From the IMG/VR virus record IMGVR_UViG_3300024518_000708, positions 1 through 21,798 of that record: a stretch of 21,798 nucleotides of DNA; one strand, written 5' to 3'. The notes under the pieces were generated by a model, which saw only the letters and a program-made list of their open reading frames with translations, searched no databases and was not told the origin of the DNA. Position numbers and translations under genes: made by a program. Positions 6,052-17,664 of this stretch are shown here, piece after piece. Numbering within the stretch: position 1 is the stretch's first letter; each line of letters starts with the position of its first letter. Source of the stretch: a virus.

Positions 6052-6270
6052 ATGTGCGGAGGAGCCCCTTCCCCACCACCGCCCCCGCCCCCGCCCGAGC
6101 CTTTGCCCCCGGCACCCCAGCCGGTGGATAGCGCCACAGCGGAGAAACGGGCCAGGAGTAAGCGCACGGCTGCGACCGCCCGTGGGCTGACTGCCAAGCG
6201 TTCGACGACCCCTCTCGGGTTGACGGATGACAATCTTAACTCGACCAAGAAGACGGCGTTGGGAGTGTAA
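6052..6270 (+). CDS. MCxGG microprotein 1, Pro-rich, 72 aa
   Basis: This is the first of four consecutive short genes whose products start Met-Cys. AGGAG at 6038-6042, overlapping the terL stop, sits 9 nt before the ATG. The protein begins MCGGAPSP, then has a run of eight or so prolines (residues 8-15) and a basic middle (residues 32-50). It carries a TPLG motif at 53-56 and TALG at 68-71, ending in ...TALGV. No membrane segment is seen. From memory, short Gly/Pro-rich proteins with a terminal 'LLG'-like motif occur near the portal genes of several podophages, with no known function. A head or portal accessory role is inferred from location. The last codons also provide the ribosome-binding site of the next gene. 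Confidence 0.8.
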   Translation: MCGGAPSPPPPPPPPEPLPPAPQPVDSATAEKRARSKRTAATARGLTAKRSTTPLGLTDDNLNSTKKTALGV

Positions 6271-6272
6271 CC

Positions 6273-6455
6273 ATGTGTCTCGGAGGAGGTGGATCATCAC
6301 CAGCGCCTCAGCCTCTACCGGACCCCAACGTCCAGAGGGCTGAAGGCGATGACCCGGAGACGAACCGGATCAAGGATCGGAACAAAGAGGACAAGCGCAC
6401 TGCCCTCGGTCTGGTCGCGAAAGAGCCCGAGACCCCGCTAGGGAGGATCGAGTAA
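6273..6455 (+). CDS. MCxGG microprotein 2, 60 aa
   Basis: This is a paralog of its neighbours. The first 13 residues (MCLGGGGSSPAPQ) are identical to those of the next gene, yet only 3 of the 13 codons (including ATG) are the same. The middle is highly charged (residues 23-42). TALG occurs at 43-46 and TPLG at 54-57, and the protein ends PLGRIE. GGGAG at 6261-6265, inside the end of the previous gene, lies 7 nt before the ATG. The stop overlaps the next start (TAATG). Function unknown. Codon-independent conservation of the N-terminal peptide shows it is a real, selected protein. Confidence 0.85.
   Translation: MCLGGGGSSPAPQPLPDPNVQRAEGDDPETNRIKDRNKEDKRTALGLVAKEPETPLGRIE
6441..6446 (+). promoter_or_regulatory. 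Ribosome-binding site embedded in the C-terminal PLGRI codons
   Basis: GGGAGG, in the Gly-Arg codons of microprotein 2, lies 8 nt before the ATG at 6455. The equivalent AGGGAAG at 6652-6658 in microprotein 3 lies 8 nt before the ATG at 6667. The conserved C-terminal peptide therefore doubles as the Shine-Dalgarno of the next gene. Confidence 0.65.
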
Positions 6456-6667
6456 TGTGCTTAGGTGGAGGGGGCTCAAGCCCCGCACCCCAACAGCAGA
6501 AGCCCCCATTTCCCAAGGAGCTGTCCGACGAACAGAAGTCGGTCGGCAAGGAGATGGGGCGCAAGGCCAATGAAAACTCTGAGCGTCGCCGGCAACAGAC
6601 TGCCCTCGGCGTGCAGGACAACCAGTTCACGGATAGCTCCGGGACACCGCTAGGGAAGATCAAGTAA
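6455..6667 (+). CDS. MCxGG microprotein 3, 70 aa
   Basis: It starts in a TAATG overlap. Residues 1-13 are identical to microprotein 2. A Pro/Gln stretch follows, then a charged, probably helical segment (residues 22-46) rich in Lys, Glu and Arg. TALG is at 49-52 and TPLG at 64-67, and the protein ends PLGKIK. A GC-rich inverted repeat (GGGGCTCAAGCCCC, 6471-6484) falls in the Gly/Ser/Pro codons; it has no T-tract and probably only reflects composition. Function is unknown. Like its siblings it sits between terminase and portal, so a minor virion or assembly-factor role is the simplest guess. Confidence 0.85.
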   Translation: MCLGGGGSSPAPQQQKPPFPKELSDEQKSVGKEMGRKANENSERRRQQTALGVQDNQFTDSSGTPLGKIK

Positions 6668-6891
6668 TGTGCATCGGCTCATCCAACGGGCTGGGACGCG
6701 TCGTGAACCCGAACTCCTTCATCGCGGAGAAGACGGGCATCAAGGCGTTATCCCCCGAGACGGTGGCCGCGCGCAAGATCGGCGGCGGTGCCGGCGACAT
6801 CATCGCACCTCAGCGCCTGTTCATGAAGAACAAGGGGCAGAAGGCCAGCCAGTCCGCTGAGCTGGGTGACACAAAAGGGATTAACAACTGA
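6667..6891 (+). CDS. Met-Cys microprotein 4, divergent, 74 aa
   Basis: It starts in a TAATG overlap, with AGGGAAG 8 nt upstream inside the previous gene. It begins MCIGSSNGLG, so it shares the Met-Cys-x-Gly start with the three genes before it, but it lacks the Pro-rich part and the TPLG motif. The remainder has an Ala/Ile/Gly-rich segment (ARKIGGGAGDIIAPQRLFM, about residues 35-53) and a polar tail. It is either a diverged paralog or an unrelated protein sharing only the N-terminal Cys. Its TGA overlaps the portal ATG. Function unknown. Confidence 0.75.
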   Translation: MCIGSSNGLGRVVNPNSFIAEKTGIKALSPETVAARKIGGGAGDIIAPQRLFMKNKGQKASQSAELGDTKGINN

Positions 6892-8561
6892 TGCCCCTCG
6901 TAGGAACCCTTCGGGAACGCCAAGAGAAGCGGCGCGGGTCGATGGTAACGGAGCGCACTTCGTTCATCGGTCACTACCGCGAACTCTCTGACTTCATTCA
7001 ACCACGCACCGGTCGGTACTTCGTCGACGATGTGAACAAAGGCGACAAGCGGTGGAACTCCATCATCAACTCCCGCGCTACCCAAGCGCTGCGGGTCGCT
7101 ACCGCTGGGCTGTTCAATGGTGTCATGTCCCCATCCCGCCCGTGGTTTCAACTGGGTTCGCCCGACACGGATTTAAACGACTTTGGTCCGGTGAAGCAGT
7201 GGTTGACACAGGTCGAGGAGCTGATGCGTCGGATCTTCAACGGCGGCAACATCTACAACATGTCGCCTGTGATGCTACGCGAGCTGCTATTGTACGGTAC
7301 CGGCTGTCTCTCGCACGTTGACGACTTCGAAGACGTGTCGCGGTTCTACGCCCATACCGTGGGCAGCTACGTCATCGCCCAGAACGATCGCTACATGATC
7401 AACACGGTCGGTCGCGAGTACAAGATGACGGTCGAGCAGATCTACCGGCAGTTCTACAAGACCGGCAAAATCAGCCAGCCCATCCGCGACGCCTACGACA
7501 ACGGCAAGTACGACGCGTGGTTCAAGATCATCCACATGGTGGACGAGAACCCCGAATACATCCGGGGCAATCCCTTCGCCCAGAACAAGAAATATCGGGA
7601 GATGTACTACGACCCGACCGACGTGGACAAGGATCACGTCCTCAAGCAGTCGGGCTATGACGAGTTCCCGTTCTACACCCCCCGCTGGGACGTGACCGGC
7701 GAGGACATCTACGGCACCGACTGTCCCGGCATGACAGCGCTGGGCGACGTGAAAGGGCTTCAGCATGAAGAAAAGCGCAAGGCCCAGGCGATCGACAAGA
7801 TGGTATCGCCGCCCCTGCATGGTCCTCCTTCTCTCCGCAATACTGCTGTGTCTTCTCTGCCGGGCGGTGTTACGACTTACGAGGCGGGTCAGTCACAGGG
7901 GCTCAAACCTATTTACGAGGTACGCCCGCAGATTGGCGAGCTTGTCCAAGACATCCAGGCCATAGAGACACGCATCAACGAGGCGTTCTACGTCGATCTG
8001 TTCAAGGCGATTTCGGACATGGCCGGCGTGCAGCCTCGCAACCAGCTTGAGCTGACGCAGCGGAACGAGGAACGCTTGCTTCAGCTGGGACCAGTCCTGG
8101 AGCGCCTGCATGGCGAGTACCTGGACAAGGTGATTGACCGCCAGTTCGCGCAGATGGTCAGAGCGAAGATGCTACCGGAACCCCCGGAGGAGCTGCGAGA
8201 CAGCCCCCTGAAGGTGACGTACATCTCAACGCTGGCCATGGCGCAACGAGCTGTTCAGACTGGATCGATCGATCGTCTGGTCGGCTTCATTGGCGGGCTC
8301 GCCGCGGCAGGGATGCCCGGCGCAGTACACAAGCTGGACGAGATCCAAGCCGTGGACGAGTACGCCACGTTCCTTGGTGTCCCGCCGACCGTCATCAGGT
8401 CCGACGACGACGTGAAAGCCCGCATGGAAGCGGAAGCCCAGCGAGCCGCACAGGCTGCTCAAATGGAGCAGATGCAGCAGGGTGCGGATATCGCGAAGAC
8501 AGCCGGCGAGGCTGACTTGAACCTACAGGGAGCGGCCACACAAGCGGCTGACAGAGCATGA
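6891..8561 (+). CDS. Portal protein (head-tail connector, T7 gp8 / Bbp20 type)
   Basis: The portal is the dodecameric ring at one capsid vertex through which DNA enters and leaves and to which the tail attaches. This 556-residue product matches the podovirus head-tail connector family. It shows an N-terminal helical region with 'QPRTGRY' (37-43), the 'GLFNGVMSPSRPWFQL' segment (73-88), 'LLYGTGCL' (133-140), and a proline-rich core 'PPLHGPPSLRN' from residue 307. It ends in an Ala/Gln/Glu-rich, coiled-coil-like region (about 505-556). Length is normal for the family. The start at 6891 overlaps the previous TGA, and the 3' end overlaps the next start (ATGA). Codons around 7800-7870 are more T-ending than their surroundings. 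Confidence 0.95.
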   Translation: MPLVGTLRERQEKRRGSMVTERTSFIGHYRELSDFIQPRTGRYFVDDVNKGDKRWNSIINSRATQALRVATAGLFNGVMSPSRPWFQLGSPDTDLNDFGPVKQWLTQVEELMRRIFNGGNIYNMSPVMLRELLLYGTGCLSHVDDFEDVSRFYAHTVGSYVIAQNDRYMINTVGREYKMTVEQIYRQFYKTGKISQPIRDAYDNGKYDAWFKIIHMVDENPEYIRGNPFAQNKKYREMYYDPTDVDKDHVLKQSGYDEFPFYTPRWDVTGEDIYGTDCPGMTALGDVKGLQHEEKRKAQAIDKMVSPPLHGPPSLRNTAVSSLPGGVTTYEAGQSQGLKPIYEVRPQIGELVQDIQAIETRINEAFYVDLFKAISDMAGVQPRNQLELTQRNEERLLQLGPVLERLHGEYLDKVIDRQFAQMVRAKMLPEPPEELRDSPLKVTYISTLAMAQRAVQTGSIDRLVGFIGGLAAAGMPGAVHKLDEIQAVDEYATFLGVPPTVIRSDDDVKARMEAEAQRAAQAAQMEQMQQGADIAKTAGEADLNLQGAATQAADRA

Positions 8562-8908
8562 GCGACGAAGGGGAACACTTAGACGAAGAACAGACCGCGA
8601 AGGTATCAGCTGAGACCGAGTTGCAAGCGCTGCTCGCGGCTGAGAGCTTCCACGTCTGGGAGGATGTCCTCAAGACCTACGCTGGCCGGCAGGCTATGTG
8701 GGAGATCTTGGTCGAGGCGAAAATCCATGCCACCTCATTCACTGGCGACCGGTGGGGTGATTTCAACGAAGGTCGTCGGGATCTCGGAAATTGGCTCATT
8801 GCAAATAAGATCTTTACAACGGGTCAAGAGTGGTATACACTCATGGGGTCTGAAGCACAACAACGAGACGAACGTGTCAAACAACTTCGTGAACAAAGGG
8901 GACTATGA
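8558..8908 (+). CDS. Bbp19-like phage structural protein, 116 aa
   Basis: Residues 33-85 resemble the small Bbp19-like phage domain, named after Bordetella phage BPP-1. The pattern is a helix, 'YAGRQAMWEIL', a hydrophobic 'HATSFTGD' segment, then 'FNEGRRDLGNWL'. The family lies directly after the portal gene in related phages, as it does here. Its precise role is unknown; it is regarded as virion- or assembly-related. An acidic N-terminus (1-20) and a charged C-terminal helix (98-115) flank the core. The start overlaps the portal stop as ATGA. The 3' third of the gene has A/T-rich codons and contains a promoter candidate for the scaffold-capsid genes. Confidence 0.8.
   Translation: MSDEGEHLDEEQTAKVSAETELQALLAAESFHVWEDVLKTYAGRQAMWEILVEAKIHATSFTGDRWGDFNEGRRDLGNWLIANKIFTTGQEWYTLMGSEAQQRDERVKQLREQRGL
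8813..8841 (+). promoter_or_regulatory. Candidate sigma70-like promoter before scaffold and capsid genes
   Basis: TTTACA (8813-8818), a 17-nt spacer ending GGTA, then TACACT (8836-8841). The string GGTATACACT and the spacing are the same as in the candidate at 5812-5840. It lies within the Bbp19-like gene, about 65 nt upstream of the scaffold start. That is a sensible place to boost capsid-gene transcription. Confidence 0.4.
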
Positions 8909-9801
8909 TGCCTGACCCAGTGGTCGATGAAACACCGAAAGACGGCGAAACTCCGCTAGGCAAGACCGCCGAGGAGCAAGCCGCCACTCTCTACGACAGC
9001 CCCGAGGCGGAAGCCAAAGCTGCCGAGGAGAAAGCCGCGTCCGACGCCGAAGCCGCGACGGAAGCTGCCGCTGCCGAGGAAGCTCGCATTTCCGCGTTGC
9101 CTGCCGCAGAGCAGGAAGCGGAGCGAACCAAGGTCGCCAACGAGAAGGCGGCTGACGAGGAACTCAAGAAGCTGGAAGCCGCGAAGGCTCCCGAGGGTTT
9201 CGAGGAGAAGACGGCAGACGAAATCGCGGCCATGTCGGCTCGCGAGAAAGCCGCCTACTTCGATGCCCTGGCGAAAGCCGAGGACGCTGCCAAACCCAAG
9301 GAGGACCGCGAAGGTGCCCCCGAGGAGTATGGCAAATTCGAGACACCGGAGGGTTTCGAGGAGCTGGACAAGGAACGGCTCGACGCTTTCCTCCCCATCG
9401 CGAAGGACATGGACCTCAGCCAAGCGGACACGCAGAAGCTGATCGACCACTTCGCGGCGGAACAGACGAAGATCATCACCGAACAGGTCGAAGCCTGGGA
9501 GGAGCAGAAAGCCACATGGCTCACTAGCTCCAAAGAGGACGACGAGATCGGTGGGAAAGGTTTCGACCAATCGGTCGGAAAGGCTGTGGCGGCGCTGGAT
9601 CAGTTCGGCACCCCGGAGCTGCGAGAAGCCCTTGACCAAACCGGCATGGGCAGTCACCCCGAAGTCATCCGCGTCTTTTCACGGATTGGGGCGGCGATTT
9701 CGGAAGGGAAAGTTATCACGGGCGGGATCGGCACGCAAGACGCCGATAAGACCCAGGCCGAGGTGATGTACCCGTCGATGGCGAAGACGCCAGCGGCTTA
9801 A
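8908..9801 (+). CDS. Capsid scaffolding protein
   Basis: The product is about 297 residues and strongly acidic, with an N-terminal half dominated by Ala, Glu and Lys (likely extended helix or coiled coil). The C-terminal part, from about residue 140, has the pattern seen in podovirus scaffolds: 'EGFEELDKERLDAF', 'LSQADTQKLIDHF', 'WLTSSKEDDEIGGKGFDQS', 'LDQFGTPELREALDQTGMGSH' and 'IRVFSRIGAAISEG'. Scaffolds direct coat assembly and leave before DNA packaging. The gene sits just before the major capsid gene, as expected. ATGs at 8905 and 8908 are both possible; the second is better spaced from AAAGGGG. Near the N-terminus is GETPLGKT, matching the motif in the MCxGG microproteins. Confidence 0.88.
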   Translation: MPDPVVDETPKDGETPLGKTAEEQAATLYDSPEAEAKAAEEKAASDAEAATEAAAAEEARISALPAAEQEAERTKVANEKAADEELKKLEAAKAPEGFEEKTADEIAAMSAREKAAYFDALAKAEDAAKPKEDREGAPEEYGKFETPEGFEELDKERLDAFLPIAKDMDLSQADTQKLIDHFAAEQTKIITEQVEAWEEQKATWLTSSKEDDEIGGKGFDQSVGKAVAALDQFGTPELREALDQTGMGSHPEVIRVFSRIGAAISEGKVITGGIGTQDADKTQAEVMYPSMAKTPAA

Positions 9802-9828: not shown

Positions 9829-10851
9829 ATGGCCGTTCTTAGTGCCAAAAACCCGACCTTGCTCGATCTGGCGAAGGTGACTGACCCAGACGGCAAGATT
9901 GCCACGGTCGCCGAGATCTTGAACGAGACCAACGAGATCTTGGAAGACATGACGTGGATCGAGGGCAACCTGCCCACCGGCCACCGTACCACCACGCGAA
10001 CGGGCATCCCCGCTCCGACGTGGCGGAAGCTCTACGGTGGTGTCCAGCCGAACAAGTCAACGACCGTCCAGGTCACTGACAGCACCGGTTCGCTGGAAGC
10101 CTACGCCGAGGTGGACAAGAAGCTCGCCGACCTCAACGGCAACACCAGCGAGTTCCGGCTCAACGAGGATCGCCCCCACATCGAGGGCATGAACCAAGAG
10201 CTGGCCGACACGCTGTTCTTCGGAGACGAAGCCAGTGAGCCCGAAGCCTTCACCGGCTTTGGTCCGCGCTTTGACGACCTCTCCGGTCCCGAGAACGCCG
10301 ACAACATCATCGACGGCGCGGGCACCGGTTCCGACAACAACAGCATCTGGCTGATTGTCTGGGGTCCGAACACTGTCCACGGGATCGTTCCCAAGGGCAT
10401 CAAAGCCGGCCTGTCTGTCACGGACAAGGGCCAAGTCACGATCGAGGATGCCAGCGATGGCTCCAACACCGGTCGTTTCGAAGCCTACCGGACCCATTAC
10501 TCGTGGGATGCCGGCCTCACCGTTCGTGATTGGCGCTTCGTCGTGCGGATCTGCAACATCGACCTGTCGCTTCTGACGCGTGTTTACACGTCGGGCGCGT
10601 TCAGCACGGGCGCTCACTTGCCCGACCTGATGTTCCAGGCTCTGCGTCTCCCGCCCAACCTCAGCATGGGACGCCCGGCGTTCTACATGTCCAAAGACCT
10701 GATCACTTGGGTTGGCCGACAGACTGCCGCTGCGGTCCAGGGTTCCACGCTGACGACCGAGATGGTCGGCGGCAAAATGGTAACGTCCTTCATGGGTGTG
10801 CCGATGCGTCGCGTTGACGTGCTGGCCGCGAATGAAGCGCGCGTAACCTAA
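9829..10851 (+). CDS. Major capsid protein (Bbp17-like)
   Basis: The 340-residue product resembles the major head proteins of BPP-1-like and related podophages, which adopt the HK97 coat fold. Recognisable stretches are 'KIATVAEILNETNEILEDMTWIEGN' in shortened form at residues 23-47, 'GHRTTTRTGIPAPTWRKLYGG' at 51-71, 'NEDRPHIEGM' (112-121), 'TLFFGD' (128-133) and 'GRPAFYMSKD' (281-290). A strong Shine-Dalgarno (AAGGAG) precedes the ATG. The gene follows the scaffold and precedes a cement protein, which matches the family context. There is no protease gene beside it, and no N-terminal delta domain is apparent. The protein is probably the most abundant virion component. Confidence 0.93.
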   Translation: MAVLSAKNPTLLDLAKVTDPDGKIATVAEILNETNEILEDMTWIEGNLPTGHRTTTRTGIPAPTWRKLYGGVQPNKSTTVQVTDSTGSLEAYAEVDKKLADLNGNTSEFRLNEDRPHIEGMNQELADTLFFGDEASEPEAFTGFGPRFDDLSGPENADNIIDGAGTGSDNNSIWLIVWGPNTVHGIVPKGIKAGLSVTDKGQVTIEDASDGSNTGRFEAYRTHYSWDAGLTVRDWRFVVRICNIDLSLLTRVYTSGAFSTGAHLPDLMFQALRLPPNLSMGRPAFYMSKDLITWVGRQTAAAVQGSTLTTEMVGGKMVTSFMGVPMRRVDVLAANEARVT

Positions 10852-16350: not shown

Positions 16351-16816
16351 GTACCTGCACCGGCCCAGCGTCGAGGAAGATTGCGCCCTCCTGGCACCCA
16401 GGATGAAGAAGGCAGACGTGGACGAGCTATGGGCTTTCGCCCGTATGCGACCAGTCCAGGCACTCAAGCACAGCCTCATGTACTCGCACGAGAGCTTCAC
16501 CGTCGAGGTTGACGGTCAGGTCGAGATGATGTATGGTATTGGACAGCCTTCGTTGCTGTCTCTCAACGCGATCCCTTGGATGCTTTCCTCGGACGCGGTG
16601 TATGACCCGGAGCATCGCCGTCACTTCCTGAAGGGGAGCGCTGAGTGGTTGGAGCTGATGAAGTTCATGTACCCGCGCATGGTCAACTTCGTGGATGGCC
16701 GCGCCAAGAAGACGATCGTCTGGTTGAAACGACTGGGGTTCACCATTGATGAACCGGAGCTGATGGGCAGGGACGAGATACCGTTCCATCGGTTCCACAT
16801 AGGATTGGAAAGCTAA
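16343..16816 (+). CDS. gp13-like internal virion/assembly protein (acetyltransferase-like fold)
   Basis: The 157-residue product resembles the T7 gp13 family, needed for assembly of the internal core and noted for a GNAT-like fold. Recognisable parts are 'ADVDELWAF' (24-32), 'SFTVEVDGQVEMMYGIG' (51-67, the typical beta hairpin), 'IPWMLSSDAV' (77-86) and 'NFVDGRAKKTIVWLKRLGFTID' in shortened form at 115-136. The last segment is the usual GNAT-like end (helix plus 'WLkxLGF'). Whether it binds acetyl-CoA is unclear; a clear RxxGxG/A loop is not visible. It is the first gene of the ejection-protein block and overlaps the nozzle gene by 8 nt and the next gene by TAATG. Confidence 0.88.
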   Translation: MTKYLHRPSVEEDCALLAPRMKKADVDELWAFARMRPVQALKHSLMYSHESFTVEVDGQVEMMYGIGQPSLLSLNAIPWMLSSDAVYDPEHRRHFLKGSAEWLELMKFMYPRMVNFVDGRAKKTIVWLKRLGFTIDEPELMGRDEIPFHRFHIGLES

Positions 16817-17664
16817 TGTGTCCTGTCACAGGTACTGCTGCCGCCGTAGGCACCGTCGCAGCTACCTCCGCTGCCTCTGCCGCTGCCGCTAGTGCTGCCG
16901 CCGCTGCTGCCGCTGCTACGACCGCTGCTGCCGCTGCCACGGCTACCGCTGCTGCTGCCGCTGCCTCGGCGACTGCCGGCCTATCTGCCGCTGCTGTCAC
17001 CTCAGCTGCTGCCGGCGTGGGTATGTTCGGCGGCATGGCGGCAACTGGTGTCTCAGCTGTCTCTGGCTTGACCGCTGTTGGTGCCTCGATGGTCGGTGGC
17101 ACCGCCGCCTCGACGGGTATCATCGCCGGCATGAGCGGGTTCCAGCTCGCCAGCCTCGGCATGAGCGCCATGTCCGGTATCATGGGTATGATGGGTCAGC
17201 GACAGCAGGGTCGAGCGGCCCAGGCGCGGGCCACGTATCAGGCTGCGGTCGATCGTAACAACGCGATCCGCTCCAATCAGAAGGCTGCTCGGGCTCGTAC
17301 CATCGGTGAGAGCCAGCGTGTCGCGAGGCTCCTGGGGGCTACTCAGGACGCTGGCCGGATCAACGTGGGTCTCGCTGCCAACGGCGTCGTCGTCAACGCT
17401 GGCACCGCCCTGGCGCTCAAGTCAGACGCCCTCGACGCCGGCTTCCAGGACGCCAGGATGATCGCCCACAACGCCGAGGTGGACGCGCTGTCCTACGAGG
17501 CAGACGCGGGCAACCACCAAGCGCAGGCTCGTCTCACCACCATGCGCGGAGCTGCCGATAATCAGGCCGGCAAGCGCGCTGCTTTCTCCACGGCACTGTC
17601 CACAGCTGGGCGAGTGTCCAACCAATGGTACGGTTTCGATCGTGCCAATCAGGGACTAGCCTAA
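16816..17664 (+). CDS. gp14-like internal virion protein with Ala-rich N-terminus
   Basis: The 282-residue protein occupies the T7 gene 14 position and, like T7 gp14, begins Met-Cys. Residues 6-66 are almost entirely Ala with Thr and Ser, including runs of 6-10 alanines. Residues 67-127 are Gly/Met/Ala-rich and hydrophobic (GMFGGMAATG, SGIMGMMG), likely membrane-inserting. Residues 128-282 are polar, helical and Ala/Arg/Gln-rich. In T7, gp14 is ejected first and forms a channel in the outer membrane. The same role is inferred here. The alanine run is encoded by mixed GCT/GCC/GCA/GCG codons, giving a trinucleotide-like tract at about 16855-16990. Overlaps: TAATG on both sides. Confidence 0.85.
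   Translation: MCPVTGTAAAVGTVAATSAASAAAASAAAAAAAATTAAAAATATAAAAAASATAGLSAAAVTSAAAGVGMFGGMAATGVSAVSGLTAVGASMVGGTAASTGIIAGMSGFQLASLGMSAMSGIMGMMGQRQQGRAAQARATYQAAVDRNNAIRSNQKAARARTIGESQRVARLLGATQDAGRINVGLAANGVVVNAGTALALKSDALDAGFQDARMIAHNAEVDALSYEADAGNHQAQARLTTMRGAADNQAGKRAAFSTALSTAGRVSNQWYGFDRANQGLA

Follow-up and report, generated by a model that had tools for sequence, protein, structure and literature searches.

A lineage-wide C-terminal tag on small proteins encoded before the portal gene of short-tailed phages, and a similar word in the scaffold N-terminus

Small proline-rich proteins encoded just upstream of the portal gene carry, in their C-terminal third, a short motif with the lineage-wide core [ST]-x-L-[GTS], in which x is usually Leu, Ile or Val. 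The window, by which we mean the whole 21.8 kb virus record analyzed here, comes from a short-tailed phage and is possibly a fragment; its T[AP]LG words look like this phage's spelling of a tag that is spread over a large group of short-tailed phages. A similar word is in excess in the N-termini of scaffolds. Judged from sequence patterns, the motif may be a docking peptide received by a single hydrophobic pocket of some common partner in the head interior, for which the portal ring is the best guess, and we give this reading a probability of about 0.45. More generally, the tag probably docks the small proteins inside the new head.

The head genes of the window are ordered as terminase, 4 microproteins with an MC start (MP1 to MP4), portal, a Bbp19-like protein, scaffold and coat (Table 1). 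The model of the portal has its top match in the Carin1 portal, 8ck0, with Z = 35.1 and rmsd 3.1 over 389 aligned. The scaffold candidate belongs to the epsilon15/BPP-1-type scaffolds of phrog_458 both by profile search, E = 2.3e-49 over residues 124-292, and by its place between the portal and coat genes; in PHROG, phrog_458 carries the annotation "protease". A PDB search for a chain of the microprotein family found nothing credible, the best scores being E = 0.26 for MP1 and 0.77 for the profile.

Table 1. Features of the window discussed in the text, with the positions of the T[AP]LG words of the microproteins
Feature	Position	Strand	Remarks
MP1	6052..6270	+	72 aa, MC start, proline-rich; phrog_831 / epsilon15 gp3 family; internal TPLG 6208-6219, near-C-terminal TALG 6253-6264
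MP2	6273..6455	+	60 aa; internal TALG 6399-6410; C-terminal ETPLGRIE, TPLG 6432-6443
MP3	6455..6667	+	70 aa; internal TALG 6599-6610; C-terminal GTPLGKIK, TPLG 6644-6655
MP4	6667..6891	+	74 aa, MC start; without tag in the window
Portal (head-tail connector)	6891..8561	+	PF12236, E 1.5e-138; phrog_332
Bbp19-like small protein	8558..8908	+	between portal and scaffold; phrog_528; PF25181 below its cut-off
Scaffold candidate	8905..9801	+	298 aa; phrog_458
Major capsid protein	9829..10851	+	phrog_212; BPP-1 coat 3j4u, E 3e-116; epsilon15 gp7 3j40, E 4e-79
gp14-like internal virion protein	16816..17664	+	MC start; phrog_418, E 9e-11

The preliminary description of this DNA had pointed to 7 T[AP]LG words, 6 in MP1-3 and 1 in the scaffold, and all are present. 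Each of the 3 microproteins has one TPLG and one TALG (residues 53 and 68 in MP1, 54 and 43 in MP2, 64 and 49 in MP3), separated as it said by 15, 11 and 15 residues, and GETPLGKT occupies residues 14-21 of the scaffold, inside the first 25. Recurrence beyond chance, which it also suggested, is borne out, as the own composition of MP1-3 (202 residues) leads to an expectation of 0.026 words against the 6 seen, and the maximum in 20,000 shuffles was 2. Over the whole listed proteome of 6,640 aa, 9 words are seen against 0.50 expected. The 2 beyond those 7 are both TALG, at residue 282 of the portal and residue 479 of a tail-fibre-like ORF, and we take them as background; the portal word (7734-7745) was considered as part of the finding and dropped, because it belongs to a conserved element, CPGMTALGD, that recurs in relatives. 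MP4 contains no T[AP]LG word. A basic residue had been said to come after the motif, which holds for 3 of the 4 TPLG words and for none of the 3 TALG words of MP1-3.

MP1-3 each have one internal copy and one copy placed 1-3 residues from the C-terminus, the pairs being TTPLGL and KKTALGV in MP1, RTALGL and ETPLGRIE in MP2, and QTALGV and GTPLGKIK in MP3. Because these internal and C-terminal sites recur both in MP1-3 and in the family alignment, we regard the 2 positions as the pattern and the alternation of Pro and Ala as incidental. The TPLG of the scaffold occupies residues 16-19 (8950-8961) in a disordered N-terminus, and an AF2 model of the protein has pLDDT <50 for residues 7-10 and 12-21, covering the word.

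The family in question is phrog_831, to which MP1 aligns over residues 6-71 with profile columns 8-69 of 70 (E = 2e-6). MP2 and MP3 have no match to that profile, and the MP3 ortholog of the closest relative, locus L175, matches at E = 0.015, but MP1-3 share the phrog_831 traits of an MC start, a proline-rich stretch, a gene just before the portal gene and a C-terminal [ST]xLG tag. The alignment of 19 phrog_831 members has 2 conserved motifs, an internal one with the consensus region xGRxSTIxTxxxGL (e.g., like STILTGPxGL) and a C-terminal tag KTLLGx, in which L66 and G67 in first-row numbering are invariant. In L175, whose portal is identical at 435 of 555 positions (78%), MP1-4 are all present in the same order. 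The MP1 ortholog (L175:4031-4246, 49/72 identical) keeps its C-terminal copy as KKTVLGV, and the syntenic orthologs of MP2 (29/58 identical) and MP3 (31/58) keep only theirs, as TGSPLGVIK and DATPLGKIE; in L175 neither of these two has the internal TALG, nor does the scaffold have TPLG. Since L175 and most relatives differ, the literal T[AP]LG is ruled out as the conserved unit. The microprotein half of the finding, in terms of the wider motif, is robust.

The ORF at the place of MP4 in locus L021 (2744-3004) ends in TKSLLGE, and the tag may therefore be gained or lost on the MP4 body. A scan for MP3 relatives brought up one distant locus, L167, which encodes 3 tandem MC-start microproteins (253-982) before a distant portal. 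Their C-termini are quite different, so the N-terminal signature outlives the tag.

The fixed position of the tag can be counted over the fetched loci, taking ORFs whose [ST]xLG is followed by no more than 4 final residues and counting identical last 40 residues once. The tag closes 93 of the 632 plus-strand ORFs in the 1 kb preceding the portal and 1 of the 670 minus-strand ORFs there; in other bins the share is 0.08-0.59%. The bodies on which the tag is found are dissimilar and range over 85-348 aa, including BPP-1 Bbp22 (135 aa) and those of loci L105 (275 aa), L100 (191 aa), L074 (348 aa) and L046, in a listing that includes a few long mechanical ORFs and out-of-frame starts and so is not a gene count. 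None of 10 tagged bodies tested has a Pfam family at its cut-off; the C-terminal half of phrog_831 matches some tagged bodies. Twelve further named phages were then taken, of which Sodalis phiSG1 was excluded because its portal and the stretch before it are without annotation. In 11/11 of those left, xLG closes the small ORF that precedes the portal, and [STKN]xL[GT] does so in 9/11.

Two variations were seen along the way. In loci L055, L068, L070, L153 and L205 the microprotein tails read K[STA]LTG[QM] in place of KTLLGx, and the scaffold words are like DLLSDDE. A domain of about 110 aa with the pattern VxFxxENxHxLxxxLxRxxRHV precedes the tagged tail within one ORF at L060:425-1099, L074:2299-3345, L077:3957-4571, L078:277-867 and L216:2457-3062, and its ORFs in L074 and L078 have no Pfam family at its cut-off.

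A tail of this kind might simply control the amount or clearance of the microproteins, as a degradation signal or through some other binding to the host, which we regard as very improbable. A host protease could read a short hydrophobic C-terminal tail, and the degradation of T7 gp6.7 and gp7.3 by cellular proteases (PMC11784390) counts for it. But such a signal would leave the adjacency to the portal, the internal copy and the co-variation with the scaffold without explanation, and the hosts are as diverse as Salmonella, Bordetella, Microcystis and Pelagibacter. Not quite so improbable, although still hard to favor, is an anchor in the tail: the tag would hold the small protein within the portal-tail channel, and the scaffold word would be a separate matter. 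The model for that is T7 gp7.3, also encoded shortly before the portal gene and held by its last residues, where the tag lies here, since its C-terminal loop (84-98 of 99) anchors it on the nozzle gp12 (PMC11784390). Against this, the MC..SP N-terminus resembles gp6.7 and not gp7.3, and neither the scaffold word nor the internal copy is accounted for.

For the scaffold half of the finding, 149 matches gave 120 usable N-termini, 26 being left out without a recognised boundary and 3 as cut or out of range, and these form 76 clusters. The pattern [ST][AILVMP][LIM][TSGN], a broad regex composed after the scaffold sequences had been read, occurs in the N-terminus of 44/76 clusters against 3.8 +/- 1.8 shuffled, and over the rest of the protein, towards the C-terminus, it is not enriched (8/76 against 11.7). 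Patterns drawn from the microproteins alone find 13/76 clusters against 0.8. When 14 gene families of the window were tested, a strong terminal excess came only from the scaffold N-terminus (35/97 against 1.8) and the ends of the gp14-like protein (C-terminus 16/41 against 2.1, N-terminus 9/41 against 1.0). The portal C-terminus has a weak excess, 6/100 against 1.4, and the Bbp19-like family is not enriched. In middle parts, excesses over shuffles are found in ttA (18/75 against 2.4), the gp13-like protein (5/27 against 0.8) and the portal (25/100 against 14), and we read these as conserved words bound to the fold.

The preliminary description had held that absence of the motif from related scaffolds and microproteins would count against it. 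The microproteins retain it, but some scaffold orthologs do not: L175 offers DGIFGD at most, and the word is absent in epsilon15, Vibrio 1.021 and PS25B.1, all of which bear the tag. In the 11 later named phages the scaffold regex is found once against 1.0 shuffled, no better than chance. With xL[TG]G as a looser core, picked after those sequences were seen, 6/11 of them are hit against 0.47, and only 7/76 of the first scaffold set against 1.2. Because some tagged phages lack the scaffold word and the regex is at chance in the named phages, the scaffold half is lineage-dependent. One could go further and deny scaffold and microproteins any common function, the tag being real and the scaffold word a degenerate patch of hydrophobic residues, of a common kind, within an acidic tail that has another role. 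The pattern is short and degenerate, and it is missing or at chance in just these phages, as that would predict; yet 44/76 against 3.8, an excess restricted to the N-terminus and an x that co-varies with the tag all speak against it, and we judge it unlikely.

The co-variation concerns whether x is Ala or Pro. Among phages with Ala or Pro before the tag Leu, 6/7 show one of these two residues in the scaffold word as well, compared with 7/49 others (Fisher 3e-4; trait simulation on the portal tree, p ~0.0015), which supports one shared binding site. The sample is 56 non-redundant phages with both tag and scaffold word, drawn from 226 loci that include many overlapping re-fetches (97 with both, 38 with the tag only, 26 with the scaffold word only, 37 with neither, 24 without a gene and 4 outside these categories); in a previous count, over 59 rows, the figures were 6/8 against 7/51. 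The exceptions are L086, with A in the tag and V in the scaffold, and 7 phages in which the scaffold has A or P and the tag L, I or V.

The same data would fit equally well if the tag imported small proteins into the scaffold core, by binding the folded part of the scaffold or the inner face of the coat, which the scaffold word would also contact. That varied bodies carry the tag recalls the T4 capsid targeting sequence, which is found on diverse internal proteins and brings them into the scaffold core (PMC3012670), and a word common to scaffold and small proteins suggests mimicry. The tagged genes, however, adjoin the portal gene and not the scaffold gene, the positional analogue in T7 contacts the portal, and epsilon15 and L175 retain the tag without the scaffold word, making import into the core a rather unlikely reading, if somewhat less so than a lack of any common function.

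In the gp14-like protein of the window, STALST near the C-terminus (TALS, 17590-17601) aligns with a T/S-x-L-T/S/G site of relatives. There x is Ala in 4/4 of the phages with Ala or Pro in the tag against 3/17 others, compared by eye over rows of which some are near copies. As the site is located in a conserved hydrophobic stretch, which may be conserved for other reasons, we treat it as a lead only. In L055, L070 and L153 the matching site of the gp14-like protein is AGLx, and the N-terminal third of the window protein is unusually Ala-rich.

The docking peptide for a common partner proposed in the preliminary description thus survives in altered form: the motif is placed in small proteins next to the portal, is in excess in scaffold N-termini and co-varies at x, but the letters T[AP]LG themselves are not conserved. 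From these patterns we infer binding, the identity of the partner (portal, scaffold or coat), loading of the procapsid and any ejection. If docking is the right reading, the scaffold would use its N-terminal word as procapsid growth begins at the portal, and the tag would let the small proteins be placed around the portal while the procapsid is being built, both words sharing one pocket that is most likely on the portal. After the scaffold leaves, the small proteins might stay at the portal, as gp6.7 and gp14 do on the T7 portal barrel. The portal is our best guess for the putative partner, with the coat as the alternative. It is possible, although we would sooner doubt it than rely on it, that in podophages of the epsilon15/BPP-1 type the C-terminal [ST]xLG is a tag for import into the head, defined by its sequence and either copied from the scaffold's docking peptide or common to both. 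Unrelated small proteins would be loaded into the procapsid at the portal by means of it, and tag and receptor would co-evolve. In that event, genes for virion cargo could be recognized by reading the tag in the sequence, with no other information, the cargo set would change between phages, and the phage of the window would load 3 tandem copies.

How podophages load small internal proteins into the head, and how the scaffold finds the portal, is known mainly from a few model phages, and a tag common to the scaffold and the small proteins next to the portal is a concrete element that can be mutated. It could also flag unannotated cargo proteins now filed as hypothetical across epsilon15, BPP-1, Carin1 and pelagiphages. 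A literature search found no printed description of the motif, a weak negative with subscription journals thinly covered. Carin1 is a good test system, since the portal model best matches 8ck0 and gp47, annotated as a hypothetical protein, is a clear tagged small protein.

Among known proteins, the closest likeness is to the phrog_831 family of epsilon15 gp3 and Carin1 gp47, which MP1 matches over nearly its whole length; family members occupy the same place before the portal and share the internal motif and C-terminal xLG tag, but their tag usually has L, I or V at the position of the window's A or P. T7 gp6.7 (phrog_1391, DUF5476) is like the window microproteins in being small, with an MC..SP N-terminus and a gene shortly before the portal. 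Profile similarity does not extend this, as hhalign aligns 7 N-terminal columns at a probability of 7.7%, the window microproteins have no match to phrog_1391, and 6 gp6.7 homologs have no conserved xLG tag. In T7, loop I (residues 2-15) of 12 copies of gp6.7 surrounds and lines the portal barrel, which gp14 wraps (PMC11784390). T7 gp7.3 (phrog_1320) is also small, pre-portal and functional at its C-terminus, but it has no MC start and the C-terminus is different. For Peru-2, the authors of its description found orthologs of gp6.7 and gp7.3 not easy to pick out, possibly for lack of motifs by which to know them (PMC13320782).

T7-type scaffolds (L084:2951-3874, L220-L224) have an N-terminal hydrophobic word resembling the motif core in 6/6 phages, namely NSAVMSG, NSAVLTG, HNAVLTG, SNAITG, TNAVVSG and GNAVITS. 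In T7 gp9, which is phrog_1052 where the window scaffold is phrog_458, that word is SAVMSG (AVLTG in 2 relatives), and there is also a TPLG near residue 104, which we rejected as the same element because 5 T7 relatives do not conserve it (APLG, EPLG, IELG). The T4 targeting sequence is likewise a conserved tag on otherwise different proteins, as seen here before the portal; the present tag lies at the C-terminus and is similar to a word of the scaffold itself, and the 2 tags are compared by function and not by sequence. In P22, an extended segment of the scaffold, the C-loop, occupies a cleft of hydrophobic character between the wing domains of the portal (PMC12005531); that loop lies towards the C-terminus, unlike the window scaffold word, and the likeness is one of docking mode, an extended scaffold segment in a hydrophobic portal cleft, rather than of motif.
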